Source of the DNA: Tessaracoccus palaemonis
Lineage (GTDB): Bacteria; Actinomycetota; Actinomycetes; Propionibacteriales; Propionibacteriaceae
Direction: 5' to 3'
Assembly (NCBI RefSeq): GCF_019316905.1
Contig: NZ_CP079216.1
Span: 2,914,001 to 2,978,000, forward strand
DNA length: 64,000 nucleotides
Of this stretch, positions 92 through 64,000 are shown piece by piece; the first letter of the stretch is position 1, and each line of letters begins with the position of its first letter. The notes below the pieces were generated by a model, which was not told the origin of the DNA, made no database searches, and saw nothing but the letters and a program-made list of their open reading frames with translations. A program made the position numbers and the translations under genes.

Positions 92-108
92 TCCGGACCC
101 CCTGATCC

Positions 109-150: not shown

Positions 151-191
151 TTCCGCACCCCACCCACCCACCCGACGGACGGAGGCCCGCC

Positions 192-2227: not shown

Positions 2228-4029
2228 TGGACGAGTTTGACGACTTCCCCGCCAAGGACTCGCGCCGCGACCGGGAGCGCGGGGCCGCCATGATCACCGT
2301 GATGGGCGTCGGGCTGGTGCTGGCGATGCTGATGTCGCTGCTGGTGGTGACCACGGTCAACGGCATGAAACAGGCCCGCGCCGACGCCAACTGGAACGCG
2401 GCCCTGGCCGCCGCCTACGCCGGGGTCGACGACTACCAGAGCCGCCTGTCCGCCGACACCAGCTACTACCGCTTCGGCAACCCCGCCTCGTCCTTCAGCG
2501 CGACGAGCACCGTCACTCTGCCGAGTGAGACCAACAAGGCCTTCGGGGTCGGCACCACGGGGACCTGGGCCAACGTGAGCGGCAGCACCGAGCGGGCGCA
2601 GTTCCGCTACGAGGTCGACAACTCGAAGTACGCGACGACCGGCCGCATCCGCGTGCGCGCCACGGGCAGGGTGGGCGACGCGACCCGCACCGTGACGGCA
2701 GACCTGAAGCAGCAGGGGTTCATCGACTACCTGTACTTCACCGACTACGAGGCACAGGACCCGTCCGTCGCGGGCACGTCGAACACCTCCTGCTTCACCG
2801 ACAGCACCAAGACGACGCTCAAGTACAGCTGGGCCGGACGCACCGTGGGTTCAACCTGCAACGAGATCTCGTTCGGCGCGGCCGACGACCTTCAGGGCCC
2901 GGTGCACAGCAACGACACCATCCGGGCCTGCGGGTCGAGGTTCGAGGGCACTGTGACCACCGCCGACTCCCGCTCGCCCTACTACTCGGCGAGGAACTCG
3001 AGCGGCTCCTCATGCACCGGCCCGACGTTCGAGCTGGCGGGCTACCCCAGCTACAGCGGCGGCGTCGTCGGCATGCCGGCCACCAACTCGGAGCTCAAGA
3101 AGGAGACCCGCACCGACCTGGTCGCTACCGAGGTCCCGCGGCCCGGGTGCCTGTACACAGGCCCGACGCAGTTCACCTTCTACGCGAACGGCACGGTCAA
3201 CATCAAGTCACCGTTCACGAAGAAGACCCGGATCGGGAACGCGAACTCCACCACGGGCACGTCGCCGGCCGAGTGCGGGACCATCTCCGCGCTGCAGTCT
3301 TCGGCCGGCGCCACCATCACGGTGCCGGAGAACAACGTGATGTACGTGCAGAACGTCCCGTCGGTCACCAGCGACGTCAACTACTGGTCCTCCAGCACCA
3401 ACCCGACCAACTTCACGTGCACGACGGCGAGCAGCACCTCCGCGGGCAAGCCGGGCTGGAGCTTCGGAACAGGCACCAACAAGATCGCCTTCCCCTCGAG
3501 CACCGAGAAGCCCCCGACCACCACCACCTACGGCTGCCGCGCAGGAGACGTCTTCGTGAGCGGCGAGTTCAACGGTGCCGCGACGCTGGCCGCCGAGAAC
3601 TACGTCTTCGTCACCGGGGACATCACCTACGTCAACGACCAGGAGGACATCCTCGGCCTCGTGGGGAACAACGCCGTGTGGGTGTACAACCCGCTGACCA
3701 GCTCCGGAAACGCCCTGCTGGCGAAGAACCGCACGATCGAGGCCGCGATCCTGTCGGTCGCGCACACGTTCCAGGTGCAGAACTACGACGCCGGCAGCAG
3801 CCGCGGAACGCTGACAGTGCTGGGCGCCATCGCGCAGAAGTACCGCGGCACGGTCGCGACGACAAGCGGCGGCAGCATCGCCACCGGTTATGCCAAGGAC
3901 TACCGCTACGACGACCGGTTCAAGTTCTACGCGCCGCCCAAGTTCCTCAACCCCGTCACCACCACCTACGGCGTGACGAGCTGGGTCGAGAGCAAGGCCG
4001 TCTTCGCGGCCGACGGGTCGGCATCATGA
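2227..4029 (+). CDS. PilX-like pilus assembly protein
   Basis: 600 residues, starting at an ATG that overlaps the previous TGA by one base. A short acidic and basic cytoplasmic head precedes RERGAAMITVMGVG and a hydrophobic segment at about residues 20-41, like PilX_N proteins, which lack the strict G-FxxxE motif. The remaining 560 residues are Ser/Thr/Asn-rich with scattered cysteines (for example near NTSCFTDST), suggesting a secreted disulfide-bonded surface domain. Standard PilX proteins are about 200 residues, so the C-terminal part is an actinobacterial enlargement of unknown function. It overlaps the peptidase gene by ATGA. Confidence 0.75.
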   Translation: MDEFDDFPAKDSRRDRERGAAMITVMGVGLVLAMLMSLLVVTTVNGMKQARADANWNAALAAAYAGVDDYQSRLSADTSYYRFGNPASSFSATSTVTLPSETNKAFGVGTTGTWANVSGSTERAQFRYEVDNSKYATTGRIRVRATGRVGDATRTVTADLKQQGFIDYLYFTDYEAQDPSVAGTSNTSCFTDSTKTTLKYSWAGRTVGSTCNEISFGAADDLQGPVHSNDTIRACGSRFEGTVTTADSRSPYYSARNSSGSSCTGPTFELAGYPSYSGGVVGMPATNSELKKETRTDLVATEVPRPGCLYTGPTQFTFYANGTVNIKSPFTKKTRIGNANSTTGTSPAECGTISALQSSAGATITVPENNVMYVQNVPSVTSDVNYWSSSTNPTNFTCTTASSTSAGKPGWSFGTGTNKIAFPSSTEKPPTTTTYGCRAGDVFVSGEFNGAATLAAENYVFVTGDITYVNDQEDILGLVGNNAVWVYNPLTSSGNALLAKNRTIEAAILSVAHTFQVQNYDAGSSRGTLTVLGAIAQKYRGTVATTSGGSIATGYAKDYRYDDRFKFYAPPKFLNPVTTTYGVTSWVESKAVFAADGSAS

Positions 4030-4838
4030 GCGACCTGTTCCCGCCCGTCGTGGGCATCGCGCTGGCCGTCGTCCTCGGCGCCCTGATCGGCTCGTTCCTG
4101 AACGTCGTGATCTGGCGCGTGCCCCGCGGCGAGAGCATCGTCAGCCCCGGCTCCGCGTGCCCGGGCTGCGGAGCCGACATCGCCTGGTACGACAACGTGC
4201 CGATCCTGTCGTGGCTGGTACTGCGCGCCCGGTGCCGCCACTGCCACCAGCCGATCTCGGCGCGCTACCCGGCGGTCGAGGGCTGCACCGCGGCGGCCTT
4301 CGGGGTCGTCGTCTGGGGCGCGTACGCGGGCAGCTACCCCGCGGCCGTGCTCCCCGTGCTGCTGTACTGGGCCGCCGTCGCGATCGCGCTCGCCCTGATC
4401 GACGTGGACCATCACCGCCTGCCCGACGCCATCGTGCTGCCCTCCTACGTCGTCACCGTCGCGCTGCTGGTCCTCGCCTCCGTGCTGACCGGGGACTATG
4501 CGCGACTGGTCGCGGCGCTGATCGGCGGCATCGCGCTCGGCGGCTTCTACCTGGCGCTCGCGCTGCTCCGCCCCGGCGGGATGGGGCTCGGCGATGTGAA
4601 GCTCGCCGGCGCGCTCGGCATGCTGGTGGCCTGGCTCGGCTGGGCCGAGCTGCTCGTCGGCGCCTTCGCCGCCTTCCTGATCGGCGGGCTCGTCGGCGTT
4701 GGGCTGATGGCCGGCAGCCGGGCCACCCGCAAGACGGCGCTGCCGTTCGGCCCCTTCATGCTGCTGGGCGCCGCCCTCGGCATCTGGGCCGGGCGACCGC
4801 TCGCCGACCTCTACCTGACAGCGACAGGACTCGCCTGA
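4026..4838 (+). CDS. pilD: Prepilin peptidase (type IV leader peptidase)
   Basis: 270 residues, multi-spanning inner-membrane aspartic protease that cuts prepilin leaders and may methylate the new N-terminus. Visible motifs: the N-terminal GSFLNVVIWRVPRGES signature, two zinc-type CxxC pairs (Cys45/48 and Cys70/73), catalytic Asp125 in ALIDVDHHRLPD and Asp189 in GMGLGDVK. Both the cysteine domain and the two aspartates are intact, so a bifunctional full-length enzyme is likely. Start overlaps the PilX-like stop by ATGA. Its substrates are probably the prepilins encoded just upstream. Confidence 0.95.
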   Translation: MSDLFPPVVGIALAVVLGALIGSFLNVVIWRVPRGESIVSPGSACPGCGADIAWYDNVPILSWLVLRARCRHCHQPISARYPAVEGCTAAAFGVVVWGAYAGSYPAAVLPVLLYWAAVAIALALIDVDHHRLPDAIVLPSYVVTVALLVLASVLTGDYARLVAALIGGIALGGFYLALALLRPGGMGLGDVKLAGALGMLVAWLGWAELLVGAFAAFLIGGLVGVGLMAGSRATRKTALPFGPFMLLGAALGIWAGRPLADLYLTATGLA

Positions 4839-4869
4839 TGCGCACGGCACACCCAACCCGGAGGACCAC

Positions 4870-6009
4870 ATGGCAGCAGTAGTCGCACTCGACCTCAGCC
4901 GTACGTCGTTGCGCGCTGTGCAGGTCGAGTCGCCGTATACCGCCCGGCCGGCGATCAGCCGGTTCGCGTCGATCCCGATCCCCGAGGGGACCGTCCACGA
5001 CGGCGAGATCGTCGACCAGACGCGGGCGATCCGGGCCCTGAAGGACCTGTGGAAGATCGGCGGGTTCACGACCCGCAAGGTCGCCTTCGCCATCAGCAAC
5101 CGCAAGGTCGTCGTGCGCGAGGTCTCGCTGCCGGCCCTGCTGGGCACCAGCCGCCGCACGAGCCTGCGGTTCGCGGTCGAGGGGCAGGTCCCGATCGACC
5201 TCGACGACGCCATCCTCGACTTCCTGCCGCTGCGCGACGTGCACGAGAACGGCGAGTACCGGCAGGAGGGGCTCCTTGTCGCGACGGTCCGCAGCAGCCT
5301 CGAGACGACGGTGACGGCCATCGAGGACTCCGGCCGGCAGATCGACGCGATCGACTTCTCCGGGTTCTCGCTGCTCCGCGCGCTGCCTGCGCCCCACCCG
5401 GGCACCCACGCGATCGTCAACGTCGGCGCCTCCAGCACCACCGTCGTCATCTCACGCGCCGGGACGCCGGGCTTCGTCCGCGTCGTGCCGAGCGGCGGCG
5501 ACGACGTGTCCCGCAGCATCGAGCGGGCGCTCGGCGTCAGCTTCGCCGAGGCGGAGCAGGACAAGATCGCCCGCGGACTGCAGGGCGGGGCGACCACAGC
5601 CCGCGACATCGACGCCGAGACCGTGCTCCGCGAGAACATCGCAGGGCTCATCACATCGGTGCGCAACACCTTCACGTACTGGTCGAACTCGCACCCCGAG
5701 TCGCCCGTCGAGACGGTGGTCCTGACCGGTGGCGGCAGCCGACTCATGGGGCTCCCGCTCGTCCTGTCGAAGGCGCTGGGGGTCGAGGTGAGCTACGGCA
5801 ACCCGCTGGGCGCGTTCCAGATGGCGCGCCGTCTGCGCGACTCCGAGATGGAGCGCTGGGCACTCGAGCTCGCGGCCCCCCTGGGCGTCGCGCTGGGCGC
5901 GAAGGCGCGTCCGGCGACCCAGGCACAGGCGCCGACGTCGAGGAAGGCGGGCCGGTCCGCCCCGACCGCCAAGGAGAAGGCCGCCGCGAAACGAGGAGCG
6001 AGGAAATGA
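4870..6009 (+). CDS. pilM: Type IV pilus assembly protein PilM
   Basis: 379 residues, actin-like cytoplasmic ATPase-fold protein that binds the N-terminus of PilN and links the inner-membrane alignment complex to the motor. The N-terminal VALDLSRTSLRAVQVE matches the phosphate-1 motif of the FtsA/PilM fold, and VLTGGGSRLMGLPLVL near residue 290 is the adenosine motif. GGAGG precedes the ATG at 4870. The last 40 residues are a Lys/Arg/Ala-rich tail not needed for the fold. It overlaps pilN by ATGA. Confidence 0.9.
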   Translation: MAAVVALDLSRTSLRAVQVESPYTARPAISRFASIPIPEGTVHDGEIVDQTRAIRALKDLWKIGGFTTRKVAFAISNRKVVVREVSLPALLGTSRRTSLRFAVEGQVPIDLDDAILDFLPLRDVHENGEYRQEGLLVATVRSSLETTVTAIEDSGRQIDAIDFSGFSLLRALPAPHPGTHAIVNVGASSTTVVISRAGTPGFVRVVPSGGDDVSRSIERALGVSFAEAEQDKIARGLQGGATTARDIDAETVLRENIAGLITSVRNTFTYWSNSHPESPVETVVLTGGGSRLMGLPLVLSKALGVEVSYGNPLGAFQMARRLRDSEMERWALELAAPLGVALGAKARPATQAQAPTSRKAGRSAPTAKEKAAAKRGARK

Positions 6010-52082: not shown

Positions 52083-52712
52083 ATGCACAGACCCCAGCGG
52101 CCACCCACACCCGCGCCGGCGAGGCCGGACGGGGTCCAGTTGCGAGCCCAGCGCAGCCCGCGGCTGATCGCGCTGGGGGTCCTGCTCGTCGTCCTCGGCG
52201 GCATCGCCGCCGCCAGCCTGTACGCGGCCAACACGCACCACCGCAGCGTGGTCGCGATGGCAGCTGACGTCACACGTGGCCAGGTCATCGGGCGCGAGTC
52301 GCTGACGGTGGTCGAGGTCCCCGAGACCCTGGCGACCCAGGCGCTCGACGGTGAACGGATCGACGAGATGGTCGGCCAGCACGCCCTCACGGACCTCCCG
52401 GCGGGCGCGTTCCCGCTGCCCGGGCACGTCGGCGACGACCCGCTGCCCGACGGTCAGGGACTGGTGGGACTCAAACTCATGCCGGGCCGGCTGCCCGCCT
52501 CGGAGGTGGTCCCCGGCACGGAGCTGCTGGTCGTGTCGCTCGCCGAGGCGGACACCACGGCCGTCGAGGCCACGGCCGCCTCGTCGCCCGTGTTCCTCGA
52601 CGACGGCGTGACCGTCGCCCTCGACATCCGCGTGGCCGACGCGGATGCCGCGACGGTGGCCCGGCTCGCGGCCACCGACCTGGTGGCCGTCGTCGTGACA
52701 GGGGTGGCGTGA
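52083..52712 (+). CDS. CpaB/RcpC-like SAF-domain protein of the Flp (Tad) pilus
   Basis: 209 residues; ATG after GGGAGGAG. A proline-rich cytoplasmic start, one transmembrane helix (LIALGVLLVVLGGIAAASLY), then a SAF domain (VVAMAADVTRGQVIGRESL; LPAGAFPLP) as in CpaB/RcpC, which may bind cell-wall carbohydrate and support Flp pilus assembly. It opens an operon with TadZ-like and CpaF-like genes, with stop-start overlap at 52710-52712. Confidence 0.85.
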   Translation: MHRPQRPPTPAPARPDGVQLRAQRSPRLIALGVLLVVLGGIAAASLYAANTHHRSVVAMAADVTRGQVIGRESLTVVEVPETLATQALDGERIDEMVGQHALTDLPAGAFPLPGHVGDDPLPDGQGLVGLKLMPGRLPASEVVPGTELLVVSLAEADTTAVEATAASSPVFLDDGVTVALDIRVADADAATVARLAATDLVAVVVTGVA

Positions 52713-53506
52713 TGGCTGTTCTCGTCCTCTGTTCCCCCGTTGGCTCGCCCGGCGCGACGACGACAGCGCTGGGGCTCGCGCTCGGCTGGCCGCGCGACGT
52801 GCTGCTCGCCGACTGCGACCGAGACCCGTCACAGGCCGTGCTCGCCGGATACCTCCGCGGGCTCGACGCCGGAGGCCGGTCGCTGGTGGGGCTCGCGCAG
52901 GTGTATCGGGAGGCGGGAGCGCTGGAGTCGGACCTGCTGCGCCATTGCGTACCGCTCAACCAGGACGGCCATGCCCAGCGTCGCCACCTGCCGGGCTTCA
53001 CGTCCGCCGGCACCGCCCGCCTGTTCGAACACGTGTGGGGACCGCTGGGCGAGGCCTTCGCCTCGCTCGACAGGCGCGGTATCGACGTCATCGTCGACGC
53101 GGGCCGCGTGACCCACCACGGCCTCCCGTTGGCGCTCCTCACCTCGGCGGACGCGGTCGTGGTGTGCGTGCGGTCGTCACTGCGGTCGCTCGCCGGCCTG
53201 CGGATCCATCTCGCAACGCTGTCGGACCAGCTGGCCTCGCTGCCGGTGCCCGTCGGTCTGGGGCTCGCCGTCGTCGGCCCGGACCGGCCATACTCGAGCG
53301 GGGAGATCGCCGCCCAGTTCGGCGTCCCGGTGTGGGCCAGGCCGCCCTGGGATCCGCGCGCCGCGGCCGTCCTGAGCGACGGCGAGGACGAGCCCCGCCA
53401 CTTCTCCTCGTCACGGCTGCTCGGCGCGCTCCGCGACGACGCCAGGGTCATCTCGGAGCGCCTCGCTAGGGGCCGGGAGCGCGCCTCGGGGATGGTCCCG
53501 GCATGA
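52712..53506 (+). CDS. TadZ/CpaE-like ParA-fold protein with altered P-loop
   Basis: 264 residues; ATG at 52712 (a GTG one codon upstream is in frame). N-terminal CSPVGSPGATTTALGLA replaces the KGGxGKT deviant Walker A of ParA and lacks its signature Lys, LLADCDRDPS carries the ParA Asp, and VIVDAGRVTH is Walker B-like. TadZ/CpaE proteins place Tad machinery at the pole; loss of the lysine suggests weak or no ATP hydrolysis. It overlaps cpaF by ATGA. Confidence 0.8.
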   Translation: MAVLVLCSPVGSPGATTTALGLALGWPRDVLLADCDRDPSQAVLAGYLRGLDAGGRSLVGLAQVYREAGALESDLLRHCVPLNQDGHAQRRHLPGFTSAGTARLFEHVWGPLGEAFASLDRRGIDVIVDAGRVTHHGLPLALLTSADAVVVCVRSSLRSLAGLRIHLATLSDQLASLPVPVGLGLAVVGPDRPYSSGEIAAQFGVPVWARPPWDPRAAAVLSDGEDEPRHFSSSRLLGALRDDARVISERLARGRERASGMVPA

Positions 53507-54594
53507 GTGTCGACGAGATCGGCTCCCTCGCAGGTGCCCTGAACCAGCTGGGCGTCACCTACGACCCGGTCGCCCTCCCGTCGCCCGGCCCCACCCCGAC
53601 CGTCACCGTCCTCGGCGATGTCCCCACGGTCGACTGGGCGCTGGTGGTGCCGCTGCGCCGCGAGGCGGCCGACGCCATTGCCAGAGCGGCGGACGCCTGG
53701 CTGAGCGACCACGGGCGGCCGATGCCCGAGGAGGACCGTCGCGTGCGCGGCCGCGCGATCATCCGCTCGGTGGTCCACGCACACGCCCAGGCCCTGAGTG
53801 AGAGGGGCGAGGCGCTGTGGCCCATCGACCTCGAGAACCGGCATGCTGACGCCGTCGAGAACGCCATCTTCGGCTATGGGCGGCTGCAGCCCCTGTTCGA
53901 ACTGCAGACCGCGGAGAACATCGAGATCAACGGGCACGACAACGTGTGGGTGCAGCACTCCGACGGGCGGCGGGTCGCGCATCCTCCGGTGGCAGACAGC
54001 GACGAGGAGCTGATCGAGGCCATCCGCTTCCTCGGGGAGACGGCTGCTCCCCCACGGCCGTTCGACGACCTGCACCCCACGATGACGCTGGCGCTGGGCA
54101 ACCGGTTCCGGCTGCACGCCATCGGCTTCGGGCTGTCGTTCCGCCCGAGCATCGTCATCAGGCAGCACCTGCTGACCGACGTCACCCTCGCCGACCTCGC
54201 CGAGGACGGCATGCTGCCCGCCTCCGTCGCCCGGCTGCTGCAGGCCGCGGTGCTCGCGCGTCGCTCGATCGTGATCTCCGGGGACCAGGGCGCGGGCAAG
54301 ACGACGCTGCTGCGGGCGCTGATCGCCGCCATCCACCCCAACGAGAGGTTCGGGACGCTTGAGACGGACTACGAACTGCTCACCCACCTGCTCGCCAACC
54401 GTCCGAACGTGCTGGCGCTGCAGGCCAGGGTCGGAATGGGCGAAAACTCGGGGGGCGCCGCCGTCGGGTCCTACACCGTCGCCGACCTGATCCCGGAGGC
54501 GCTGCGCCAGAACCTCACCCGGCTGGTCGTCGGCGAGGTGCGCGGCGAAGAGGCAGGGGCGATGTTCGAGGCCATGCAGTCAGGCACGAGCGCT
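53503..54594 (+). pseudogene. CpaF/TadA pilus ATPase, 3' end lost to element insertion
   Basis: About 364 residues of a CpaF-family secretion ATPase: all-alpha N-domain, GRLQPLFELQTAENIEING (linker), Walker A SGDQGAGKTTLL with Lys266, a glutamate-rich Asp box and Walker B LTRLVVGEVRGEEAGAMFEA. Homology stops at MQSGT, where intact CpaF proteins continue into the catalytic His region (a GxxSTxH-type stretch) and about 80-100 more residues. The frame runs on to 54945, but this tail is the integrase gene read in the wrong frame (low-complexity Ser/Thr/Pro/Ala). The motor is therefore broken while the element is integrated. Confidence 0.85.
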
Positions 54595-54608
54595 TTACAG
54601 TTATACCC
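54583..54608. other. Probable left attachment junction (attL) inside cpaF
   Basis: CpaF coding similarity ends at about 54585-54594 (GGCACGAGCGCT), and base composition changes at once to TTTACAGTTATACCC just before the integrase ATG at 54609. Large serine integrases usually sit right beside one attachment site. The exact crossover dinucleotide cannot be set without the right end. TACAGT at 54596-54601 could be a -10 box, giving a leaderless integrase mRNA. Confidence 0.6.
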
Positions 54609-56123
54609 ATGGACGTCCTCGTGTACACCCGCATCTCCCGCGACACCACCGGCATGGCCGCCGGCGTCCAGCGCCAGGAGGCGGACTGCCGGGCACTCGC
54701 GGCAAGCCACGGCTGGACCATCACATCAGTCCACACCGACAACGACACAAGTGCCTACAGCGGCACCCCGCGCCCCGGCTACCAGGCCGTCCTCGACGAG
54801 CTTCGCCAGGGCTCGGTCGGTGCCGTCGTCGTCTGGCACGTCGACCGCCTCTACCGCCGCGTCACCGACCTCGAGGAGTACATCGCGGCCTGCCAGGTCC
54901 ACGGCGTCCCCACCTACTCCGTCCAGGCCGGCCCGCTCGACCTGACCACACCCAGCGGCCGCATGATCGCCCGCCAGCTCGGCGCCGTCGCCCAATACGA
55001 GTCAGAGCAGAAAGGCGAGCGCCAGCGCCGCGCCAACCAGCAACGAGCCCAGCAAGGACGCAACCCCACCACCCGACGCTGCTTCGGCTACGAGCCAGAC
55101 GGCCTCACTCTGCGCCCCGCGGAGGCTGACGCGATCCGCGACGCCTACCAGGCACTCCTCGCCGGCGCGAGCCTCGGCGAGATCGCCCGCATGTGGAACG
55201 CCGCCGGCCTCCACGGCCCGCAAGGAGCGATCCGCCTCCCGGCCGACGTCAAGGCCGAGTGGGAGACGGCCAAGGCCGCGGCACGGGCCGCTGGCGAGCC
55301 GATGCCGCCGCGGCCATTCGTGCCCTGCGACTGGACCGGATCTGTCGTGAGCCGAACGCTGCGACTCCCCCGCCTGGCTGGACTGAGACGGTACCGCGGG
55401 GAACTCGTCAGAGATCCGGCCACCGGCGAGCTCGTCCGCGGCGTGTGGTCGGCCATCGTCGACCTCGAGACCTGGCGCGCCGCCCAGGACGTCCTCAACG
55501 CCCCCGATCGGCAACAGTTCCCGTCTGCCGAGCGGCAGCTCCTATCAGGGCTGGCCCTGTGCGGCGAGTGCGGCGCCACGATGCAGTCCGGTGGCACGCG
55601 GGGCGGCCGCCGGCGGATCCGCTGCTCGAGCAAGTCGTCGCACGCCTACCGCGAGTCCGAGCCCATCGACACCTACGTCGAAGCCGTCATCATCGAGCGC
55701 CTCTCCCGCCCCGATGCACGGGAGCTACTGAGCCCACCCACCCCTGAGGTCGACGTCGACGGGATCCGCGCCGAGCTCCGCGCCCTGGCGGTGCGTCAGG
55801 AGGAGCTCGCCGAGGGGTTCGCCGACGGGGCCGTGACCTTGGCGCAGCTCCGCACCGCGAACGAACGCATCGACGAGACCCGCGCCCAGCTAGAGGGGTC
55901 ACTCCCCTCACCCGAGAACGCTGTCCTCCGCCGCCTGGTCGACGCCGACGACGTGCCCCAAGCGTGGGCGAACCTTCGCCAGGAGGACAAGCGCTCTGCG
56001 ATCGGCGCGCTCGCTGTCGTAGAGATCCTCGCGCCAGGGACGAAGGAGAAGGCGTACCTGGATTGGCGGGCGCGGGTGCTGAATCCGGAGAGTCTCCGGA
56101 TCACCTGGCGTCAGGGCAGGTAG
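54609..56123 (+). CDS. Large serine recombinase (integrase)
   Basis: 504 residues. N-terminal catalytic domain with nucleophile Ser10 in VYTRISRD, conserved Arg in VWHVDRLYRR and SGRMIARQLGAVAQYESEQK; a recombinase DNA-binding domain (about residues 150-280); a zinc ribbon (CGECGATMQSGG, later IRCSS); and a coiled-coil region (EELAEGFADGAVTLAQL) that controls direction. All parts are present, so the enzyme looks active. It integrates the element at attB within cpaF. Excision would need a partner factor, perhaps encoded at 60957 or downstream. Confidence 0.95.
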   Translation: MDVLVYTRISRDTTGMAAGVQRQEADCRALAASHGWTITSVHTDNDTSAYSGTPRPGYQAVLDELRQGSVGAVVVWHVDRLYRRVTDLEEYIAACQVHGVPTYSVQAGPLDLTTPSGRMIARQLGAVAQYESEQKGERQRRANQQRAQQGRNPTTRRCFGYEPDGLTLRPAEADAIRDAYQALLAGASLGEIARMWNAAGLHGPQGAIRLPADVKAEWETAKAAARAAGEPMPPRPFVPCDWTGSVVSRTLRLPRLAGLRRYRGELVRDPATGELVRGVWSAIVDLETWRAAQDVLNAPDRQQFPSAERQLLSGLALCGECGATMQSGGTRGGRRRIRCSSKSSHAYRESEPIDTYVEAVIIERLSRPDARELLSPPTPEVDVDGIRAELRALAVRQEELAEGFADGAVTLAQLRTANERIDETRAQLEGSLPSPENAVLRRLVDADDVPQAWANLRQEDKRSAIGALAVVEILAPGTKEKAYLDWRARVLNPESLRITWRQGR

Positions 56124-56159
56124 AGGTCGGCGGGGCGAGCGTCAATCAGTGCGCGCTCG
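56111..56159 (-). pseudogene. Vestigial 3' end of immA duplicated after the integrase gene
   Basis: 49 bases match 56822-56870 at 43 positions. Read on the minus strand they encode ERALIDARPADLYLP and a stop, against ERAIIDARLADLYLP and a stop in the real ImmA. The scrap overlaps the last 13 bases of the integrase gene. It marks the place where integrase and immA once met before the lipoprotein gene came between them. Confidence 0.85.
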
Positions 56160-56179
56160 CGCAGGGGCGGCGCCGTTGA

Positions 56180-56737
56180 TCATAAGTAAGGACCCCAGGC
56201 GTTGAGTTCGTCCTCGACCGCGTCGTAGGCGCGCATGGCGTTGCCCGCAGCCGTGGTGCAGTCGTCAGTGTCCGCCTCGTCGCCCATCGTGCCGCACTGC
56301 TCATCCATCCGAGCGAGCACAACCTTCAGTAATGCGTTGCGGGTGTCGTAGACCAGATCGGCGATCGAAGCTGGCACCTCTCCCAGTGCGTCGAGCTCAT
56401 CGACGGCGGTCGAGGCACGTAGCGCCATGGTCGACTCCTGCGCGTAGCAGATCTTCGCCTCGGCCGACTCGGTGGGATCGTCCATGTTGCCCATAGTCCA
56501 CCTAAATCGGCAGTCGCCCGCGCCGTCGATCACCTCGCGCCACTCGGTCTCATACTTCGCAATGACGCTGGCGTACTGCTCGATCGTCGGGCCAGTCTCG
56601 GTCGGCGTGGGGCTCGGTTCGGGCGCTGGGCTGCTCGTGGCAGCAGCGGGGCTGGTCTCGGCGGTGTCAGTCTGGGCCCCGCAGCCAGCGAGCAGCAGAA
56701 CGGCCACTGCGGCGAGCCCGATCGTCTTCTTCATCAT
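56180..56737 (-). CDS. Phage-encoded lipoprotein (possible superinfection-exclusion cargo)
   Basis: 185 residues from the ATG at 56737, which GAGAGGAA precedes. Signal peptide with lipobox LLAGC (Cys19), a low-complexity linker of Thr, Ser, Ala, Pro and Glu (about residues 22-50), then a helical domain with four cysteines. No known family. Lipoproteins expressed from prophage immunity regions often block entry of related phages; here that is an inference from position and the insertion scar on its flank. It is transcribed leftward, against the integrase. Confidence 0.7.
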   Translation of the reverse strand: MMKKTIGLAAVAVLLLAGCGAQTDTAETSPAAATSSPAPEPSPTPTETGPTIEQYASVIAKYETEWREVIDGAGDCRFRWTMGNMDDPTESAEAKICYAQESTMALRASTAVDELDALGEVPASIADLVYDTRNALLKVVLARMDEQCGTMGDEADTDDCTTAAGNAMRAYDAVEDELNAWGPYL

Positions 56738-56821
56738 GGGGTTCCTCTCCATCGCCACCTTCGCGACGAGTCGGTTTCATCGTGGCACAGCTCACTGACA
56801 GATTCCCTTGTGGGGCCAGTT

Positions 56822-57229
56822 TCAGGGCAGGTAGAGGTCGGCGAGGCGGGCGTCGATGATGGCGCGCTCGTCGTCGTCGAGCTGCTCGGCGCGGGTCGTC
56901 ACGGTCGCTGCGTCGACGTCGAGCAGGTCGGCGATCACCAGAGGGTGCCTCGACCAGGCAGCGGCGTCCGCGAGCCGTGGCACGTCGACGAGAAGCTTGG
57001 CCGCTGTCGCCCGCACCGCGGCCTCCTCGCGGGCTAGGCGGCGGCGCTGGAACGGGCCTCGCCACGCATGGACGAGCTCGTGGGTGAGAACGGCGCGCTG
57101 CTCAGCGGACGTCAGGCCGGGGTCGAGGGTGATTGTCTCCCGGCCCCAGTCGCATCGGCCGCGGCGGGGCGTGGGTGCGATGCGCAGGCTCCATCCGAGG
57201 TGGTCGAGTGCGGTCCAAGGGTCGAACAT
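56822..57229 (-). CDS. ImmA/IrrE-type metallo-endopeptidase
   Basis: 135 residues; the ATG at 57229 (FDPWTALDHLGWSLRIAP) gives the normal short-form length, longer frames run through the hairpin upstream. The active site is VLTHELVHAW with His50, Glu51 and His54, plus a downstream Glu in LAREEAAVRATA. Such proteases cleave or inactivate their cognate XRE repressor and so start prophage induction or excision. Its repressor is probably the one at 59834, separated from it by the DUF3800, small ORF and HIRAN genes. Confidence 0.9.
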   Translation of the reverse strand: MFDPWTALDHLGWSLRIAPTPRRGRCDWGRETITLDPGLTSAEQRAVLTHELVHAWRGPFQRRRLAREEAAVRATAAKLLVDVPRLADAAAWSRHPLVIADLLDVDAATVTTRAEQLDDDERAIIDARLADLYLP

Positions 57230-57308
57230 GTCCCCATCGTGGCGAGGAGGTCCGACAAGGGCGGGCGGCCGGCTCATGGGTATTCGATGCACCGAATCCA
57301 GACAGCAC

Positions 57309-57336
57309 TGTGGGCCCCGCAGATGCGGGGCCCACA
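57309..57336. terminator. Hairpin between the DUF3800 and ImmA genes
   Basis: A perfect 12-base-pair stem, TGTGGGCCCCGC (57309-57320) with its complement at 57325-57336, closes an AGAT loop. It lies 137 bases after the DUF3800 stop and 80 bases before the immA start on the same strand, so it may end the repressor operon and give immA its own control. The rest of this 243-base gap shows nothing else. Confidence 0.7.
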
Positions 57337-57472
57337 GGCAAGTATGTTCGCGCTCAAACCATAGCGCACAGTCAATGCGGGTCATTGACCGAGCCGGTGG
57401 GTGCTGGGTCACGCCCAAGGCCACCGTCTAGCCATGAGTATGCCTGATGACCGTCTCAAGTTCAACCCGGCT

Positions 57473-58228
57473 TCAGGCTCTCCCCATGGTGAGGATGTTG
57501 ACTTTCCCCTCTCGGGCATCCGCAAAGGAGTCCAACTCGAGGGCCCGCCGGAGACGCGCCGATACTTTACCCTTGGGCGCGTCGTTGGACATCGGCGGCT
57601 CAGGAGTGCTCCCAGCCCATTGGCGCCGCTCGTAAGCGATCGCGCCGGCTATGACGTCTGCCACCTGGAGCAAGTTCGTGGACTGGGAGTCCATGTCGTA
57701 GCAAGCAACCAATGCGCGGTGTCCCAGCTTCCGATGCACGTCAGCATGAACCACCCTCGCAAGGCTGGCCCCCTGAGGCGTCTGGACCAGATCAATAACC
57801 GCATTCACCAACTCACCCTTGTTGATATTGGCAGCAATCAACTGCGCGGACATCCTCGCTTGGGTCCGCCACGTCTCCTTGCGTGCCGCAAAGGCCGCCG
57901 TCGAGTCGTAGACCGAGCCACCGACCCTCACGTCAGCTTCAGCGACAAGCTCAACGAGATCGTAGTAGAACAGCACGTGATCTCGGTTGATGGACCCAAA
58001 CTTGGCCTCGCTGAAGAACTTGTGCTTCTGGCGCAGGTGTCTGATCTCACGATCCAGTTTTGCCGGCTCCCTCACCTTGATGAACCCAAGGACAAAGAAC
58101 CCGCCGCGCGAGTTCCTGGCGCCGCTCTCATCGATGTAAATCGTGGACACGGGGACATCGTCTGGAAGATGGAACCAGTCCTCGCCGTCTCCCTCTCCGA
58201 AGAGGGTGTCCTGCTCGCTTGACGTCAT
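57473..58228 (-). CDS. DUF3800-domain protein
   Basis: 251 residues. STIYIDESGARNSRGGFFVLG at residues 28 onward is the DUF3800 N-terminal signature (Asp33, Glu34, Ser35, Gly36), and LLQVADVIAGAIAYE near the C-terminus supplies the second conserved Asp; the fold is RNase H-like, so a nuclease is possible. Function is not established. The ATG at 58228 overlaps the stop of a 40-residue ORF, so it belongs to the repressor operon. Base composition is lower in GC than the host genes. Confidence 0.85.
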   Translation of the reverse strand: MTSSEQDTLFGEGDGEDWFHLPDDVPVSTIYIDESGARNSRGGFFVLGFIKVREPAKLDREIRHLRQKHKFFSEAKFGSINRDHVLFYYDLVELVAEADVRVGGSVYDSTAAFAARKETWRTQARMSAQLIAANINKGELVNAVIDLVQTPQGASLARVVHADVHRKLGHRALVACYDMDSQSTNLLQVADVIAGAIAYERRQWAGSTPEPPMSNDAPKGKVSARLRRALELDSFADAREGKVNILTMGRA

Positions 58229-58347
58229 CGCTTCGCGCCCCCACCAGATCCAGCCCTGAGCAGGGTTTCAACGTCGACTCCCGCCCCCCAATGACACAGC
58301 CCCACCCGCGCCTCCTCGGCATCGTCAGGAAGAGCCTGGTTGACCAT
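58225..58347 (-). CDS. Small 40-residue ORF between HIRAN and DUF3800 genes
   Basis: ATG at 58347 shares a base with the HIRAN stop (TAATG) and its own TGA overlaps the DUF3800 ATG (ATGA), so all three are translationally coupled. The peptide begins MVNQALPDDAEEAR and ends in Gly/Lys/Arg; it has one Cys-His pair (GLCHWG) and no membrane segment. No family recognised. The exact fit at both ends makes it more than a chance frame. Confidence 0.65.
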   Translation of the reverse strand: MVNQALPDDAEEARVGLCHWGAGVDVETLLRAGSGGGAKR

Positions 58348-59837
58348 TAGGACTCCCGCTCAACAAACTCACCGAGATCTTCCTCGGTCCACATGTCCTC
58401 GCGAACCACCACAGCCGGAGCCGGCGGGGAGAAATCAGGGCCAGCCACGCAATCAGCATCGGTCGCCCGGTACACGTGCTCAGAGATCCACCCGTCACTC
58501 AGGTCGCCGGCCTTCGCGGTGTCGAGCACGATGTCTGCCTTGATCTGGTTGCCCTTCACGAGGGCATGGCAAGCGACACTGATCCCTTCCTCGTCGCACA
58601 GCTTCACGAGCGGGAGGAAGTTCTCCGACATGTACGGGGTCAACTGCCCAATCACATCGCCGTACACACGGACCTCGATGCGCTCCTTGCCCTTGGCGAT
58701 CGACGCCACGTGGAGCGTGGCCACGACCGGATGCTCGTTGTTCCCGTTCAGCAGCGCAGCGACTTCGTTGAGGTACCGCTCCTCCCCTGTGACCTGGACA
58801 ACGGATCCGCGCGGCAGAAGCACATAGGCACCACTGGGCATCGGGCCGGGGGCTTCGATCTCGCTCAATGAGGGCAGCTTGACCTTGACGTTGGCACGCA
58901 CGGTTCCGTAGTCGATCCGCGCCCACACGTTAGCTTGCACCTCAAGCTTGAGCCCTCGCTGCGCGAGCTCAGCCACGACCGTGGCATAGTTCGCAGCCTG
59001 CGGGTCGGTCAGGTTGCCGACCCACTCGCCTGCGACGACCACGGCCGGGGCCCTGAGCCCGCCAGACGGGACCAGGTGCGCTGGCACATCCTTGACTGAT
59101 GTTCCTTCGACACCGAGTGTCACTCCGCGGCTGGCCATGAGCCGCGCGATCTCGCCCCGGTGGTCCGCCTCCCCCTCTATCTCAAACGTGTTGATACAGC
59201 GGCCCCACGGGACCAGGGGCGCAAACGCAACTGCATCACCTGCAGGGGCGAGAGACATGAACAACGCAGCAGGGAGCACTACTTCGGCTCGGTAATCGTC
59301 GAGGGTCGCCACGGTCTGGATCGTCTTAAGGTTGGCCTGGTCCATCGCCGGGGCGGCGAGGACTGCACGCTCACGAGGGACGTGACCGATCTTTCGAGTG
59401 CCGAGCGTGACGGCGATGGCGTTGGGGTCGTATTCGTTGCGCGGCTCACGCACCAGCGTGACCGTATGTCGACCTCTGCGGTTTCCCCAGCCGCTGTAGT
59501 GCTGAACCCCCACGACCGGGACTGTGGGCTCGTCCGGGAGGGCGCTAGGAAGCCCAACGTCCATGGGGTCTGAATGACTCGCCACGGGAGCCGGAGCCGG
59601 TGGCTGCTGTTGCGTGGTGAAGTACTGGGGCTGGATTTGCCCAGCGGGGCGCGCTACGGGGTTCTGGAGTCGACGCCTGAGGGGGACTCGCCACATGCCA
59701 GCAGCAAAGAGTGCTGCGATGAACAGCAACGGGCCGATCCCGGGAACGTTGCCGATGAGGATAGAGACCATGATGGCTGCGAACCAGTACCACCAGGGGT
59801 GGCGCATGGCCCACGCGGCGAATCTGTCCATGGTCAC
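58347..59837 (-). CDS. HIRAN-domain membrane protein
   Basis: 496 residues from a GTG that overlaps the repressor stop (GTGA); an ATG two codons later also has good spacing to AGGAAGAG. Two N-terminal hydrophobic segments (about residues 13-30 and 33-50) then a linker and a HIRAN domain at about 106-165 (VVGVQHYSGWGN, REPRNEYDPNAIAV, GHVPRERA). Further C-terminal beta-rich parts (IEVRVYGDVIGQLTPYMSE) look like a second HIRAN-like repeat. HIRAN domains bind DNA 3' ends or stalled forks in helicases such as HLTF; a membrane-bound stand-alone copy in a phage repressor operon is unusual. Confidence 0.8.
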   Translation of the reverse strand: MTMDRFAAWAMRHPWWYWFAAIMVSILIGNVPGIGPLLFIAALFAAGMWRVPLRRRLQNPVARPAGQIQPQYFTTQQQPPAPAPVASHSDPMDVGLPSALPDEPTVPVVGVQHYSGWGNRRGRHTVTLVREPRNEYDPNAIAVTLGTRKIGHVPRERAVLAAPAMDQANLKTIQTVATLDDYRAEVVLPAALFMSLAPAGDAVAFAPLVPWGRCINTFEIEGEADHRGEIARLMASRGVTLGVEGTSVKDVPAHLVPSGGLRAPAVVVAGEWVGNLTDPQAANYATVVAELAQRGLKLEVQANVWARIDYGTVRANVKVKLPSLSEIEAPGPMPSGAYVLLPRGSVVQVTGEERYLNEVAALLNGNNEHPVVATLHVASIAKGKERIEVRVYGDVIGQLTPYMSENFLPLVKLCDEEGISVACHALVKGNQIKADIVLDTAKAGDLSDGWISEHVYRATDADCVAGPDFSPPAPAVVVREDMWTEEDLGEFVERES

Positions 59838-60400
59838 TTCTCTTCCTCGCCCTCATCCGGCTCGTCGCCGTCGCAGGCCGCCTGGTCGACCATCAGCGAG
59901 TCGTCCATCATCTTCTGCTGCTTCGCGGTGATGTGGCGCACGTTGTCGGGCTGGCCACCGCTGGGGGTGAACGCAGCACCCGCTTTTCCGACGTCGTGGG
60001 CCGCACCGCTGCCGCCGTCGTCACTCTTCTCAGCTTCTGGCTGCCGGCCATCACTGCTACCTCCAGTTCGCTTCGCACGTAGGAGGGCATCGACCATGCT
60101 CACGACGACCTGTCGCTCATGCTGATCGAGCCCCTGTGCGCGTTCTGGCAGCTCCCAGGGCCCGTAGTTGGGCTCTGCGCCGAGTGCGGCCCTGACGACG
60201 TCCTCCTTGACGGAGAGCATGGTCGCCAGGTCGCGGATCACACGTTCGTCGCGTGTGCCGCGTTGCTTGCCGTTGGCCAGGTTGCGCACGGTTTCATAGC
60301 TGATCGAGCCTTCGGGCAGACGCCGATGCAGGGCGAGCAGCGATGTGATCTGCAGCTCCCCCATGCGTCGAGCGATCAGCTCGGGGACGGTCTCGGTCAT
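59834..60400 (-). CDS. XRE-family phage repressor
   Basis: 188 residues; ATG at 60400 with AAGGAG upstream. N-terminal helix-turn-helix (LIARRMGELQITSLLALHRR, SISYETVRNLANGKQRG) and a charged, disordered C-terminal half ending in an acidic tail (DGDEPDEGEEEK). It reads leftward from the operator array and is the likely immunity repressor. It heads a four-gene coupled operon with HIRAN, the small ORF and DUF3800. ImmA further left is its probable protease. Confidence 0.88.
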   Translation of the reverse strand: MTETVPELIARRMGELQITSLLALHRRLPEGSISYETVRNLANGKQRGTRDERVIRDLATMLSVKEDVVRAALGAEPNYGPWELPERAQGLDQHERQVVVSMVDALLRAKRTGGSSDGRQPEAEKSDDGGSGAAHDVGKAGAAFTPSGGQPDNVRHITAKQQKMMDDSLMVDQAACDGDEPDEGEEEK

Positions 60401-60450
60401 GCCGTAACCATGGCTCCTTGTGCGACAGGCCGCATTCGAACGGTAAGTGA

Positions 60451-60564
60451 CTTGTACAAGCACAAAGTAGCCTACGGCGCTTCGGCACGTAGTCAGGCCG
60501 CACCCCTTGACTTGTACAAGTTACAAGTCCACACTTGATTGCAAGTTCCCCGCTTGTAAACAAG
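60451..60564. promoter_or_regulatory. Operator array of the lysis-lysogeny switch
   Basis: Four CTTG-N-CAAG sites lie between divergent repressor and Cro-like genes: CTTGTACAAG at 60451-60460 and 60511-60520, CTTGATTGCAAG at 60534-60545 and CTTGTAAACAAG at 60553-60564. A further half-site overlaps 60521-60527. TTGACT at 60507-60512 fits a rightward -35 box, with a possible CACACT -10 box 17 bases on, so a repressor bound at the second site would block early transcription. Confidence 0.8.
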
Positions 60565-60613
60565 GAGACAGGAGAGCAAGATGAGGTCACGCATCCACTA
60601 CCAAGGAGGTTGG

Positions 60614-60883
60614 ATGAAAGTCACCGACCCGCAGCGGCTCGCACGACAGCGCCGCCGCCTGGGCTACACCCAGGCCGACCTGGCCAACCTGGTCGGCTGC
60701 ACCCAGCAGTACATCTCCATGATCGAACGAGGCGCCGACCGCGACTGCTCCGAAGGCATGGCGCTCAGGATCGCCAACCGCCTCGATCTCGACCTGGAAG
60801 ACGTCTTCGATGCTCGACCTTCCCTTCACGCGACCACAGTTCCAAGGTCCAAGCGTGGAACCAAGCGCCGGATGGCAGCCTGA
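60614..60883 (+). CDS. XRE-family Cro-like protein
   Basis: 89 residues; the ATG at 60614 is chosen for its AAGGAGGT site 5 bases upstream, although an ATG at 60581 is in frame with a weaker site. Helix-turn-helix: RLARQRRRLGYTQADLANLV and QQYISMIERGADRDCSEGMA, typical of Cro/C1 proteins. First gene of the rightward early operon, directly right of the operators, so it probably competes with the repressor for them. Confidence 0.85.
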   Translation: MKVTDPQRLARQRRRLGYTQADLANLVGCTQQYISMIERGADRDCSEGMALRIANRLDLDLEDVFDARPSLHATTVPRSKRGTKRRMAA

Positions 60884-60956
60884 CCCCAACAAAGAGAAAC
60901 GCCCCCGCCTGGAGCTAACAGGCGAGGGCAACAACCCCAGAAAGGAGTCGGATCAC

Positions 60957-61514
60957 ATGACTCAGAGTACCAACCCCGACACCACCGCCCGACGTTGGCT
61001 GCCGATCGTCGAAGCCGCCGGCTACGTCGGACTATCCCGCAGTTCGCTCGAACGACTCATCGCTCAGGGCAAGCTCACCCGCTACAAGGCTCGGAGCCGC
61101 GTGCTCGTCGACCTGGACGAGCTCGACGCCCTCGTTGTCCAGAGTGCAATGCCTTCGACCAGTGACAACGCCAGAGCAACGAGCCCTCGGCCCCGCAGGA
61201 AGAACCAGCACACCCCTGCTCCGGTGGCCGCGGAAGCTGCCTCCGACCCGACGCCCGGGACCCAGCAGCTCCGGTACGCGATGGGCTGCTTTGAGCAGAT
61301 CATCGACGGCCTGCTCATCAAGTGGAGCGTCGACACGGGATTCCTGTCCGACGGGAATCGGTTCGTGAACTTCGTCCGTGCCGTCTACAAGGAGAACGGC
61401 GATCACGACGCGTTCCGTACCCACAGCGCTCTCGCCGAGTTCCCGTGCGATGAGCAGCCCCCCGCCCATATCGCCGCCGCGATGCTGGCCGTCATCGGCG
61501 CGGTGACCGCATGA
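60957..61514 (+). CDS. Excisionase-like helix-turn-helix protein
   Basis: 185 residues; ATG at 60957 behind AAAGGAG. Residues about 14-60 form a MerR-like HTH_17 domain (LPIVEAAGYVGLSRSSLERL, then VLVDLDELDALV) as in excisionases and plasmid/phage control proteins. The C-terminal 90 residues (FEQIIDGLLIKWSVDTGFLS) are of unknown function. It could be the directionality factor for the serine integrase or an early regulator; overlap by ATGA with the next gene. Confidence 0.75.
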   Translation: MTQSTNPDTTARRWLPIVEAAGYVGLSRSSLERLIAQGKLTRYKARSRVLVDLDELDALVVQSAMPSTSDNARATSPRPRRKNQHTPAPVAAEAASDPTPGTQQLRYAMGCFEQIIDGLLIKWSVDTGFLSDGNRFVNFVRAVYKENGDHDAFRTHSALAEFPCDEQPPAHIAAAMLAVIGAVTA

Positions 61515-61681
61515 GTGCCGTCAAGCAGCTCGCCTGCGACGAGCGCCACACCGCCATCACCACACAGGCCGCCCAGGCCGCGCAGCGCGCCTACATCCGC
61601 GCCCTCGTCGACACCGCGCCACAGCTGAGCGCCGACCAGGCCGCCGTCATCACCCGCGCATTCCGAAGGAGACTCGCATGA
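61511..61681 (+). CDS. Small phage protein (56 residues)
   Basis: Its ATG overlaps the previous stop (ATGA) and its TGA overlaps the next ATG. The protein is Ala-rich and helical (ITTQAAQAAQRAYIRALVDT) with one Cys and a basic C-terminus, FRRRLA. No family recognised. The double coupling supports translation. Confidence 0.6.
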   Translation: MSAVKQLACDERHTAITTQAAQAAQRAYIRALVDTAPQLSADQAAVITRAFRRRLA

Positions 61682-61908
61682 GCTACCAGCGCATCCACGC
61701 CCAGACCACCGGCATGAAGAACGGCGTCCGGATCTTCCGCGACGTCGAACTCGACATCAACCCCGACCGCACCGAGTACGACTTCATCCCGGCGACGTAC
61801 AGCCGGCCCGCCCTGGCCCGCGTCCACCGCCGCGTGTACCGCGAGTTCGGCCGCTACGACGTCCTCCCCGAGCTGGTCGTCCAGGACTCCATCGAGGTGA
61901 TCGCATGA
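61678..61908 (+). CDS. Small phage protein (76 residues)
   Basis: ATGA overlap at both ends. Begins MSYQRIHAQTTGMKNGVRIF, a beta-rich, charged and soluble protein without known motif; no Cys or membrane segment. Part of the early operon. Function unknown. Confidence 0.6.
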   Translation: MSYQRIHAQTTGMKNGVRIFRDVELDINPDRTEYDFIPATYSRPALARVHRRVYREFGRYDVLPELVVQDSIEVIA

Positions 61909-62330
61909 GCATCACCGGACTGATCCTCCACGCCCTCGACCATACCCCCAGCTTCGTAGAGGTCCCCGACGGCGACTACCGCGCCATGGCGGACGTCCTC
62001 GGCTGCCAGTACATCGAGCACGTCCGCACCCGCATCCCCGGCGTCGCCATGATCGTCGACGATGAGGGCGCGCTCGACGAGAACCGGCAGCTGAACCTGG
62101 GCGCCGCGTTCACCCTCTACCCCGGCCGCATCTTCGGCGACGTCCTGGTCTTCTCCGAGGTCGACGGCCCCGAAGGCCGCGACGTCACCACCCTGACCCC
62201 CGAGCACATGCTCGCCGTTTGCAACCGCCTCGGCGTCCGCCATGTCGTCGGCCTCGGCCGGGAGTTCAACGCCGACGAGCCCACCGAAGACCTCGGCCTG
62301 CACCGCCTCGTTGAGAGGGGTGAAGCATGA
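61905..62330 (+). CDS. Hypothetical phage protein (141 residues)
   Basis: ATGA overlap with both neighbours. Soluble and acidic; contains VPDGDYRAMADVLGCQYIEH and LNLGAAFTLYPGRIFGDVLV. This resembles DUF3846-type actinophage proteins (aligning a daily-value style predicted N-terminal strand with the conserved GDVLV strand), but I cannot assign it firmly. No enzyme motif seen. Confidence 0.6.
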   Translation: MSITGLILHALDHTPSFVEVPDGDYRAMADVLGCQYIEHVRTRIPGVAMIVDDEGALDENRQLNLGAAFTLYPGRIFGDVLVFSEVDGPEGRDVTTLTPEHMLAVCNRLGVRHVVGLGREFNADEPTEDLGLHRLVERGEA

Positions 62331-62500
62331 GCCCCCTCGACGTCCTGCGCGACGACCACGACGACCTCGACGACTTCCTGGCCGACCACCACCACAGCGT
62401 GGAACTCGTGTCAGAACTGCTGACGGTCCTCGTCCTCCTGATCACCGTCGCCACCCTCATCGGGCTCGCATGGCTGGCCGTCGGGTGGTGGACCGCATGA
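62327..62500 (+). CDS. Small single-span membrane protein (57 residues)
   Basis: ATGA overlap at both ends. An acidic, His-containing head (VLRDDHDDLDDFLADHHH) is followed by one transmembrane helix (LLTVLVLLITVATLIGLAWL) and a WW-ended tail. Not a known holin, which would normally lie with late lysis genes; here it is in the early region. Unknown role. Confidence 0.65.
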   Translation: MSPLDVLRDDHDDLDDFLADHHHSVELVSELLTVLVLLITVATLIGLAWLAVGWWTA

Positions 62501-62637
62501 CCCGCGACGTCCGACACCTCGTCCACCCCATCCTCCCCACCGCCGCAGAGATCGCCGCGGCCGCCTCGATCGTCCTGACCGTCGTCGGCCTCCTGGTCGT
62601 CGCGTGGACGCTCACGGACTGGTGGCCGTGGTCATGA
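62497..62637 (+). CDS. Small single-span membrane protein (46 residues)
   Basis: ATG at 62497 overlaps the previous TGA. A short basic head, then one hydrophobic helix (IAAAASIVLTVVGLLVVAWT) and the end DWWPWS, similar in style to the preceding protein. The two may act as a pair in the membrane. Its stop overlaps the next ATG. Confidence 0.6.
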   Translation: MTRDVRHLVHPILPTAAEIAAAASIVLTVVGLLVVAWTLTDWWPWS

Positions 62638-63419
62638 GTGGCGAACCGATCTGGACGATCATCGACACCTGCACACACGGCGTCACCCACCACCACGGCA
62701 CGCGCCTTGGGTACATCCGTGACCACTGCCGCTGCGACGCCTGCCGCGCAGCCGCAGCGCACTACGAGCAGGCGCGACGCCGCCGCAACGCCTACGGCCG
62801 CAGCCACCTCGTCGACGCCACCCCAGCCCGCCAACACGTCCGTGCACTCATGGCCCAGGGCATGGGATGGAAGCGGATCGCCACGTTCTGCGGCGTCGCC
62901 GCCTCGACGCTCGGACCAATCCTGTACGGCGCCTACCCCGACCAGCCGAACCACCCTGACCACCGGCCCCCGCGCCTCCAGATCAGCCGGGAGCTGTCGG
63001 CGAAGCTCCTGGCCGTCGGGCTCGATGTCGCCCCCGGCGTGCGGGTCGACGCCACCGGGGTCCGCCGCCGCGTCCAGGCCCTCGTCGCCGCCGGCTGGTC
63101 CAAGCAGCAGATCGCGAGACGGCTCGGCATCGCCCCCGGCAACATGAACCTGGACATCGCCGCCACAGTCACAGGAAACACCCGGGACCGCGTCATCGAG
63201 CTCTACAACACGATGCGCCGCGAGGCACCTCCTGCCGATGACCAGTACGGGCGCTCCGCCGCGACCCGCTCACGCAATTACGCCCAGACGCGCGGCTGGG
63301 TGACGGCCGACGCGTGGGACGCCGAGAGTATCGACAATCCACGCGCGACCCCGATGCCCACCGACCCGGCATCCGTAGCTGCCCGTCGCGCAGCGCTACG
63401 CGGACGGCGGGCGGCATGA
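62634..63419 (+). CDS. Phage DNA-binding protein with helix-turn-helix segments
   Basis: 261 residues; ATG overlaps the preceding stop. N-terminal GTRLGYIRDHCRCDACRAA holds a compact C-x-C-x2-C cluster followed by basic RRRRNAYGR. Two helix-turn-helix-like stretches: MAQGMGWKRIATFCGVAAST and VAAGWSKQQIARRLGIAPGN. It resembles helix-turn-helix proteins of actinophage early regions. Probably transcriptional or replication control; exact role unknown. Confidence 0.7.
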   Translation: MSGEPIWTIIDTCTHGVTHHHGTRLGYIRDHCRCDACRAAAAHYEQARRRRNAYGRSHLVDATPARQHVRALMAQGMGWKRIATFCGVAASTLGPILYGAYPDQPNHPDHRPPRLQISRELSAKLLAVGLDVAPGVRVDATGVRRRVQALVAAGWSKQQIARRLGIAPGNMNLDIAATVTGNTRDRVIELYNTMRREAPPADDQYGRSAATRSRNYAQTRGWVTADAWDAESIDNPRATPMPTDPASVAARRAALRGRRAA

Positions 63420-63574
63420 GCGGCTCCTGCTGGCACGACGGCCCCGACCACTGCCCCGGCTGCCGACACTGCGCCGACTCCTGGGGCGACCCCGACGAAC
63501 CGCCAGTGCGCCACTACCGCAGCATCGCCGACTTCTCGTGGACCCCGGTCCACGTCCCCGAACCCGACTTCTAG
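63416..63574 (+). CDS. Small cysteine-rich phage protein (52 residues)
   Basis: ATGA overlap with the previous gene. Cys5, Cys13, Cys16 and Cys19 in CWHDGPDHCPGCRHC, with nearby histidines, form a likely zinc knuckle. The rest is acidic and Pro-rich. No family recognised; small zinc-finger proteins of this sort often modify host transcription or replication. Confidence 0.6.
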   Translation: MSGSCWHDGPDHCPGCRHCADSWGDPDEPPVRHYRSIADFSWTPVHVPEPDF

Positions 63575-63588
63575 AAAGGACCGATCGA

Positions 63589-64000
63589 ATGAGAATCGTC
63601 GGACTCGACCTCAGCCTCACCGCCACCGGCGTCGCCATCATCGACGACGGCCAGGTCAACGTCGCCACCATCCGCTCCGCAGGGCGCAAGGGCGACAGCC
63701 TCCTGCAGCGATCCGACCGCCTTGGCTGGCTCGCTCGCGAGATCGGCGGCCGCGCCCACAGCGCCGACCTGGTCGTCGTCGAACAGCCCGCCTACGCGGC
63801 CGTCACCGGCCACCACCACGATCGCTCCGGCCTGTGGTGGCTCGTCATCGATTACCTCTCCTACGACAACTCCATCCCCGTCGCCGAGGTTGCCCCCGGC
63901 ACCCTGAAGAAGTTCGTCTCCGGCCGAGGCAACGCAGGCAAGGACGAGATGTTGCTCGCCGCAGCCCACCGCTTCGCGCGCCTCGCGACGCTGTCCACCA
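63589..64000 (+). CDS. RuvC-like Holliday junction nuclease (partial, runs off the window)
   Basis: 137 residues visible; ATG at 63589 after AAAGGA. MRIVGLDLSLTATGVAIIDD gives the first catalytic Asp (Asp7) of the RuvC/RNase H fold, LVVVEQPAYAA the Glu, and GKDEMLLAAAHR an Asp downstream. Actinophage homologues resolve branched DNA during replication and packaging. The C-terminus is beyond the right edge. Confidence 0.85.
   Translation, partial: MRIVGLDLSLTATGVAIIDDGQVNVATIRSAGRKGDSLLQRSDRLGWLAREIGGRAHSADLVVVEQPAYAAVTGHHHDRSGLWWLVIDYLSYDNSIPVAEVAPGTLKKFVSGRGNAGKDEMLLAAAHRFARLATLST

Follow-up and report, generated by a model that had tools for sequence, protein, structure and literature searches.

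A siphovirus-like prophage integrated within the Tad pilus motor gene cpaF of Tessaracoccus palaemonis

Mobile elements in competence genes

Mobile elements that settle in the genes bacteria use to take up DNA are already known. They include insertions in comYC, comK, comFA and comM (Croucher et al. 2016, PMC4774983), in which an intact element occupies a coding gene of the pilus or DNA-uptake pathway, orthologous sites are used and several unrelated integrases converge. Prophages disrupt competence genes repeatedly, and this has been interpreted as escape from deletion by transformation (PMC4774983; PMC12637031). The locus we describe here shares these features but differs in its target, the ATPase of a Tad/Flp pilus in Actinobacteria with a putative role in uptake. 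Actinobacteria go unmentioned by Croucher et al. (PMC4774983).

Two other bodies of work bear on the locus. Large serine recombinases, surveyed by Durrant et al. 2022 (PMC10083194), combine a short core with a gene-specific attB, as here. Competence genes are over-represented among their targets, with the Mg-chelatase gene (ComM) alone accounting for 12.4% of site-specific integrases; the main text of that paper names neither Tad nor pilus ATPases as targets. In Listeria phage A118, which sits in comK, and the Bacillus skin element, in sigK, a serine-integrase element likewise lies in a coding gene that can be restored precisely. Regulated excision is known for those two and would be hypothetical for the present prophage. 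Searching the open-access literature for Tad or cpaF genes together with a serine integrase or prophage insertion, we found nothing relevant.

The interrupted gene and its prophage

The window, the whole 64,000-nucleotide stretch analysed, comprises bases 2914001 to 2978000 of a complete genome of 3,204,344 bp assembled as one contig. Its principal features are collected in Table 1. A preliminary description had placed a serine-integrase element inside cpaF, in conserved coding sequence, downstream of intact CpaB- and TadZ-like genes, and that picture holds. Both upstream genes are intact, although the TadZ/CpaE-like gene owes its name to its position and P-loop-like start, Pfam and NCBIfam searches with it having given no match. 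The open reading frame that follows (53503-54945, 480 aa) retains Walker A (SGDQGAGKTT) and Walker B (LVVGEVRGEEA), and its match to TadA/CpaF models ends at about residue 362 (T2SSE 2.5e-15, TIGR03819 7.6e-38), where similarity had been said to fade at MQSGT. Because its remaining codons run out of frame through attP and the integrase, this is a chimeric reading frame and no gene.

Table 1. Features of the interrupted Tad cluster and the left part of the prophage (positions in the window).
Feature	Position	Strand	Basis or remark
CpaB-like gene, first in the interrupted Tad cluster	52083..52712	+	SAF 2.7e-07, pilus_cpaB 4.1e-06
TadZ/CpaE-like gene, intact	52712..53506	+	named from position and P-loop-like start; 98% identical in sister genome G021
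5' part of cpaF, residues 1 to MQSG, with Walker A and Walker B	53503..54584	+	T2SSE, TIGR03819; 98% identical in G021
GG crossover core, attL	54583..54584	+	seamless in-frame join and symmetric attP arms; attR partner at genome 3008654-3008655 (L008:10654-10655)
Left 9.4 kb of the 40,071-bp prophage; remainder beyond the window up to genome 3008655	54585..64000	+	phage genes right of the window
Right attP arm GTTATACCCATGGAC, 15 nt from the core	54600..54614	+	perfect inverted copy at the element's right end
Large serine integrase, 504 aa	54609..56123	+	Resolvase 6.7e-30, Recombinase 2.2e-11, Zn_ribbon_recom 4.8e-08
ImmA/IrrE-like metallopeptidase (Peptidase_M78), candidate lysogeny control	56822..57229	-	1.9e-05
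HTH_3 regulator, candidate lysogeny control	60614..60883	+	5.5e-12

The missing half of the gene lies outside the window. It starts after genome base 3008655, 40,071 bp from the N-terminal part, carries the His box and includes AGTLSTTHSHSASSTIDRL, with tadB and tadC directly 3' of it; the preliminary description had proposed looking for such a piece at the far end of the element. The insertion has thus cut the His-box half of cpaF from the rest and moved tadB and tadC 40 kb away, leaving a truncated product.

Between the two halves is a siphovirus-like prophage. Beyond the window it encodes terminase, portal, head morphogenesis, scaffold, major head, major tail, primase and endolysin proteins, a complete set of structural and lysis functions as judged from the genes. 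The terminase is nearest to those of Microcystis phage MinS1 (61%) and Arthrobacter phages Kukla and TripleJ (58%). HTH regulators and the ImmA-like peptidase occupy the left part, and genes with DUF3800 and HIRAN domains lie close to the ImmA-like gene on the minus strand (window 57473-59453). At the right end, beside attR, there is a RelA/SpoT-domain gene (L008:9837-10565, 8.3e-22), possibly serving lysogeny or superinfection.

The integrase carries Resolvase, Recombinase and zinc-ribbon domains in one protein whose length falls in the range of roughly 450-600 aa for large serine integrases. It belongs to the same protein family as the integrases of Streptomyces phages R4, phiCAM and phiScoe3 and Mycobacterium phage LastHope, with 32-36% identity over most of its length; no integrase in the phage records reaches 60%. 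Viral contigs scanned with the integrase yielded two distant relatives only, and the same contigs scanned with the N- and C-terminal halves of CpaF gave no host-flank fragments.

Attachment sites and restoration in silico

If the left flank, up to window base 54584, is joined to the right flank, after genome base 3008655, the outcome is an uninterrupted CpaF of 477 codons, in frame and without stops. The protein across the rebuilt junction reads ...FEAMQSG/AGTLSTTHSHS..., the slash marking the join. Since the flanks meet so seamlessly, we infer that excision would restore cpaF exactly. The GG at the far end of the element matches the GG at the near end, which is the shared short core that the preliminary description had anticipated. 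Placing the core at GAGC, or at the first GG of attR, puts the join out of frame and makes the arms asymmetric, and both positions were rejected.

In the rebuilt attP, two arms of 15 bp, GTCCATGGGTATAAC and GTTATACCCATGGAC, form a perfect inverted repeat centred on the GG, with 15 nt between each arm and the core. When 200,000 pairs of GG positions were drawn at random from this region, their symmetric matches reached at most 12, against 15 in attP. A short core common to attL and attR, a longer attP with inverted repeats and a simple attB are an architecture typical of a large serine integrase. The integrase start codon falls within the right arm, its ATG 25 nt after the end of the core; the preliminary description had put the ATG some 15 to 25 bases past the loss of similarity. 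By its anatomy, then, the prophage entered through attP x attB recombination at the GG in cpaF.

The same codon in related genomes

In the sister genome G021 the site is empty, and CpaF is an uninterrupted, 98% identical protein. Across 35 congeneric genomes, CpaF runs full length or nearly so through the site in 31, has no match at threshold in two and is split here in two. The preliminary description had named two findings that would tell against it, an intact CpaF ending at this same point in relatives and a far end lacking the C-terminal piece or core; the 31 congeners show no such ending, and piece and core are both in place.

One of the two split congeners, G008, has an element of 23.6 kb at the same GG; the spacers there are also 15 nt long, and the arms (CATGGTCATAAC) are related. 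Its integrase is 52% identical to that of the prophage and sits on the opposite side of the core. Among 198 genomes of the family, integrases matching at E <= 1e-75 occur only in the present genome (G000), G008, G123 and G175. These genomes represent three genera, and each of the four integrases sits at the MQSG codon of cpaF. G123 has a 15.2-kb element with a GG core, 15-nt spacers and the arm ATGGGTATA; it shares an arm motif with the present genome. Further integrases at this codon, seen from one side only, are found in G140 and G071, bringing to five the other genomes in which integrases of the same clade use it. Apart from their integrases, the elements at this site are mutually unrelated.

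Polarity varies. In G008 and G175 (L083, L130) the integrase lies on the C-terminal side of attB, not the N-terminal, and the attP polarity relative to the integrase is reversed, so that GG is read as CC. In G007, cpaF is also split at the MQSG codon, by DNA with an imperfect repeat, ATGCAGGCxGGxGC, at both ends (L080:2400-2500, L088:17380-17400). There the two pieces of cpaF are on different contigs, no integrase was recognised in the flanking DNA, and a clade-related integrase lies on a third contig that carries no cpaF; we left this genome out of the count.

Targets of the wider integrase family

We gathered related integrases from genomes of the order and of the class, as well as from named genomes, and inspected the gene adjoining the start of each. 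This is a sample collected by similarity to one integrase rather than an unbiased survey. A Tad-type ATPase gene adjoins, within 110 nt, 19 of the 58 integrases: seven at MQSG (including one in an Arthrobacter, where the gene is a TadA paralogue), eight at the motif after Walker A, three at Walker A and one further upstream. Three loci with Tad-like pieces more than 110 nt from the integrase (L074, L075, L109) were not counted. A Pfam check placed tadC beside two integrases and comM beside 10, so that Tad ATPase, tadC and comM together make up 31 of the 58. Insertion in Tad and com genes is recurrent and convergent across the sample. Other related integrases adjoin unrelated or unassigned genes, and in two cases (L069 in G034, L147 in G755) the neighbour is the 3' end of ychF, which encodes a conserved GTPase.

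When twelve of the genomes were searched with the T2SSE model, 10 yielded both parts of the interrupted ATPase gene, about 8-23 kb apart. In a quick tree, a single clade (support 91) contains the integrases of this family that target MQSG, together with the G007 integrase; the other target positions in Tad ATPase genes arise several times. The prophage integrase therefore comes from a lineage that uses cpaF as its attB, inside a wider family that repeatedly adjoins Tad ATPases, tadC and comM. If 5 of 3,500 genes are taken as the background, a binomial estimate for 20 of 57 is about 1e-42, a figure good to an order of magnitude only, because the loci are related to one another and similarity was the basis on which they were collected.

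Elements that split Tad ATPase genes are often small, around 8-15 kb (G392, G334, G223, G370, G356, G381, G408, G398, G613, G318 and L133 of G049), the exceptions in size being G318 at 23 kb and G049 at about 4 kb. Elements of such lengths are too short for tailed-phage genomes and are possibly satellites or integrative elements.

Why break a pilus motor?

The explanation we favour runs as follows. A 40-kb siphovirus-like prophage entered by serine-integrase recombination at an attB inside cpaF, at the conserved MQSG codons, with crossover at GG. Its insertion takes the His-box half out of the CpaF frame and puts 40 kb between cpaF and tadB/tadC; the Tad pilus of this cluster is therefore very probably not assembled while the prophage is present. 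The likely reason is that Tad pili serve DNA uptake in Actinobacteria, so that elements which break Tad genes would escape being removed through transformation. Micrococcus luteus requires both of its tad clusters for transformation and for surface pilin (PMC4322843). Because the Tad pilus is the DNA-uptake pilus in that organism, and comM is a competence gene, we think it reasonably probable that the prophage is an actinobacterial form of the competence-disabling prophages that escape erasure by transformation. The step from a broken cpaF to blocked DNA uptake is one we infer. The genome encodes ComEC, and also a second kind of pilus in a type IV pilus cluster (window 24-6009, continuing at genome 2909670-2913472 just upstream), with N_methyl pilin-like proteins, an A24 prepilin peptidase and PilM, and upstream two T2SSE-like and two T2SSF matches. 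There is a second complete Tad ATPase/TadBC set as well. Given this cluster and this second set, DNA uptake may not depend on the interrupted pilus.

Perhaps the element gains nothing. Strongly conserved codons in a dispensable gene could simply offer a landing site that is available in many hosts, with the pilus lost as a side effect; target sites at conserved motifs (Walker A, the one that follows it, and MQSG), and the use of YchF as a target too, are what such a preference would produce. We nonetheless hold this to be unlikely: conserved dispensable genes are many, yet more than half of the integrases chose Tad ATPase, tadC or comM, and they are divergent integrases at differing positions in the gene. 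Much the least probable account, to our minds, is that a broken pilus shields the lysogen from infection by other, pilus-dependent phages. In Caulobacter, Tad pili do act as phage receptors, but we found no Tad-dependent phage of the present hosts, and the use of comM by sister integrases, ComM being a cytoplasmic protein, would go unexplained.

The preliminary description had suggested, by analogy with comK in Listeria and the Bacillus skin element, that the element could switch pilus assembly. On such a view, programmed excision would restore cpaF when the pilus is needed. Several observations are congenial to this active lysogeny: the join in silico recreates an intact gene, and the halves of cpaF show no decay. 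Measured against G021 their dN/dS values are 0.06 and 0.12, about as conserved as the neighbours (0.06-0.22), which fits either a recent insertion or retained use and is compatible with the recent or reversible disruption that had been proposed. In G175, moreover, the contig with the N-terminal part shares exactly 127 bases with the attL contig, and this overlap stops at the GG core. Since de Bruijn assemblers break contigs where the graph branches, the overlap is suggestive of a branching graph at the crossover point and hence of a second path in the sample. A second 127-base overlap, however, lies on the right side 98 nt past the core, and the fork may for that reason reflect a mixture of strains. 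We found no developmental signal, 31 of the 35 congeners simply lack an insertion, and a switch sits poorly with elements that have only their integrases in common. We regard programmed switching as rather improbable. With so many divergent integrases at Tad ATPase, tadC and comM genes, inactivation of DNA uptake driven by the elements fits better than a switch that serves the host.

Implications

The rebuilt attP/attB pairs, which have an arm motif and the GG core in common, are candidates for integration tools in these hosts. The wider question is whether serine-integrase elements of Actinobacteria have evolved, independently and repeatedly, to break Tad motor genes (at three or more conserved motifs), tadC and comM, a proposition on which we are evenly divided. 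To our knowledge, natural transformation is documented in few Actinobacteria. If the proposition is true, Tad-dependent DNA uptake would be widespread in the phylum, and strong enough to threaten prophages. And if mobile elements keep choosing Tad motor genes, such genes would mark where DNA uptake matters, a test that needs nothing more than genomes.
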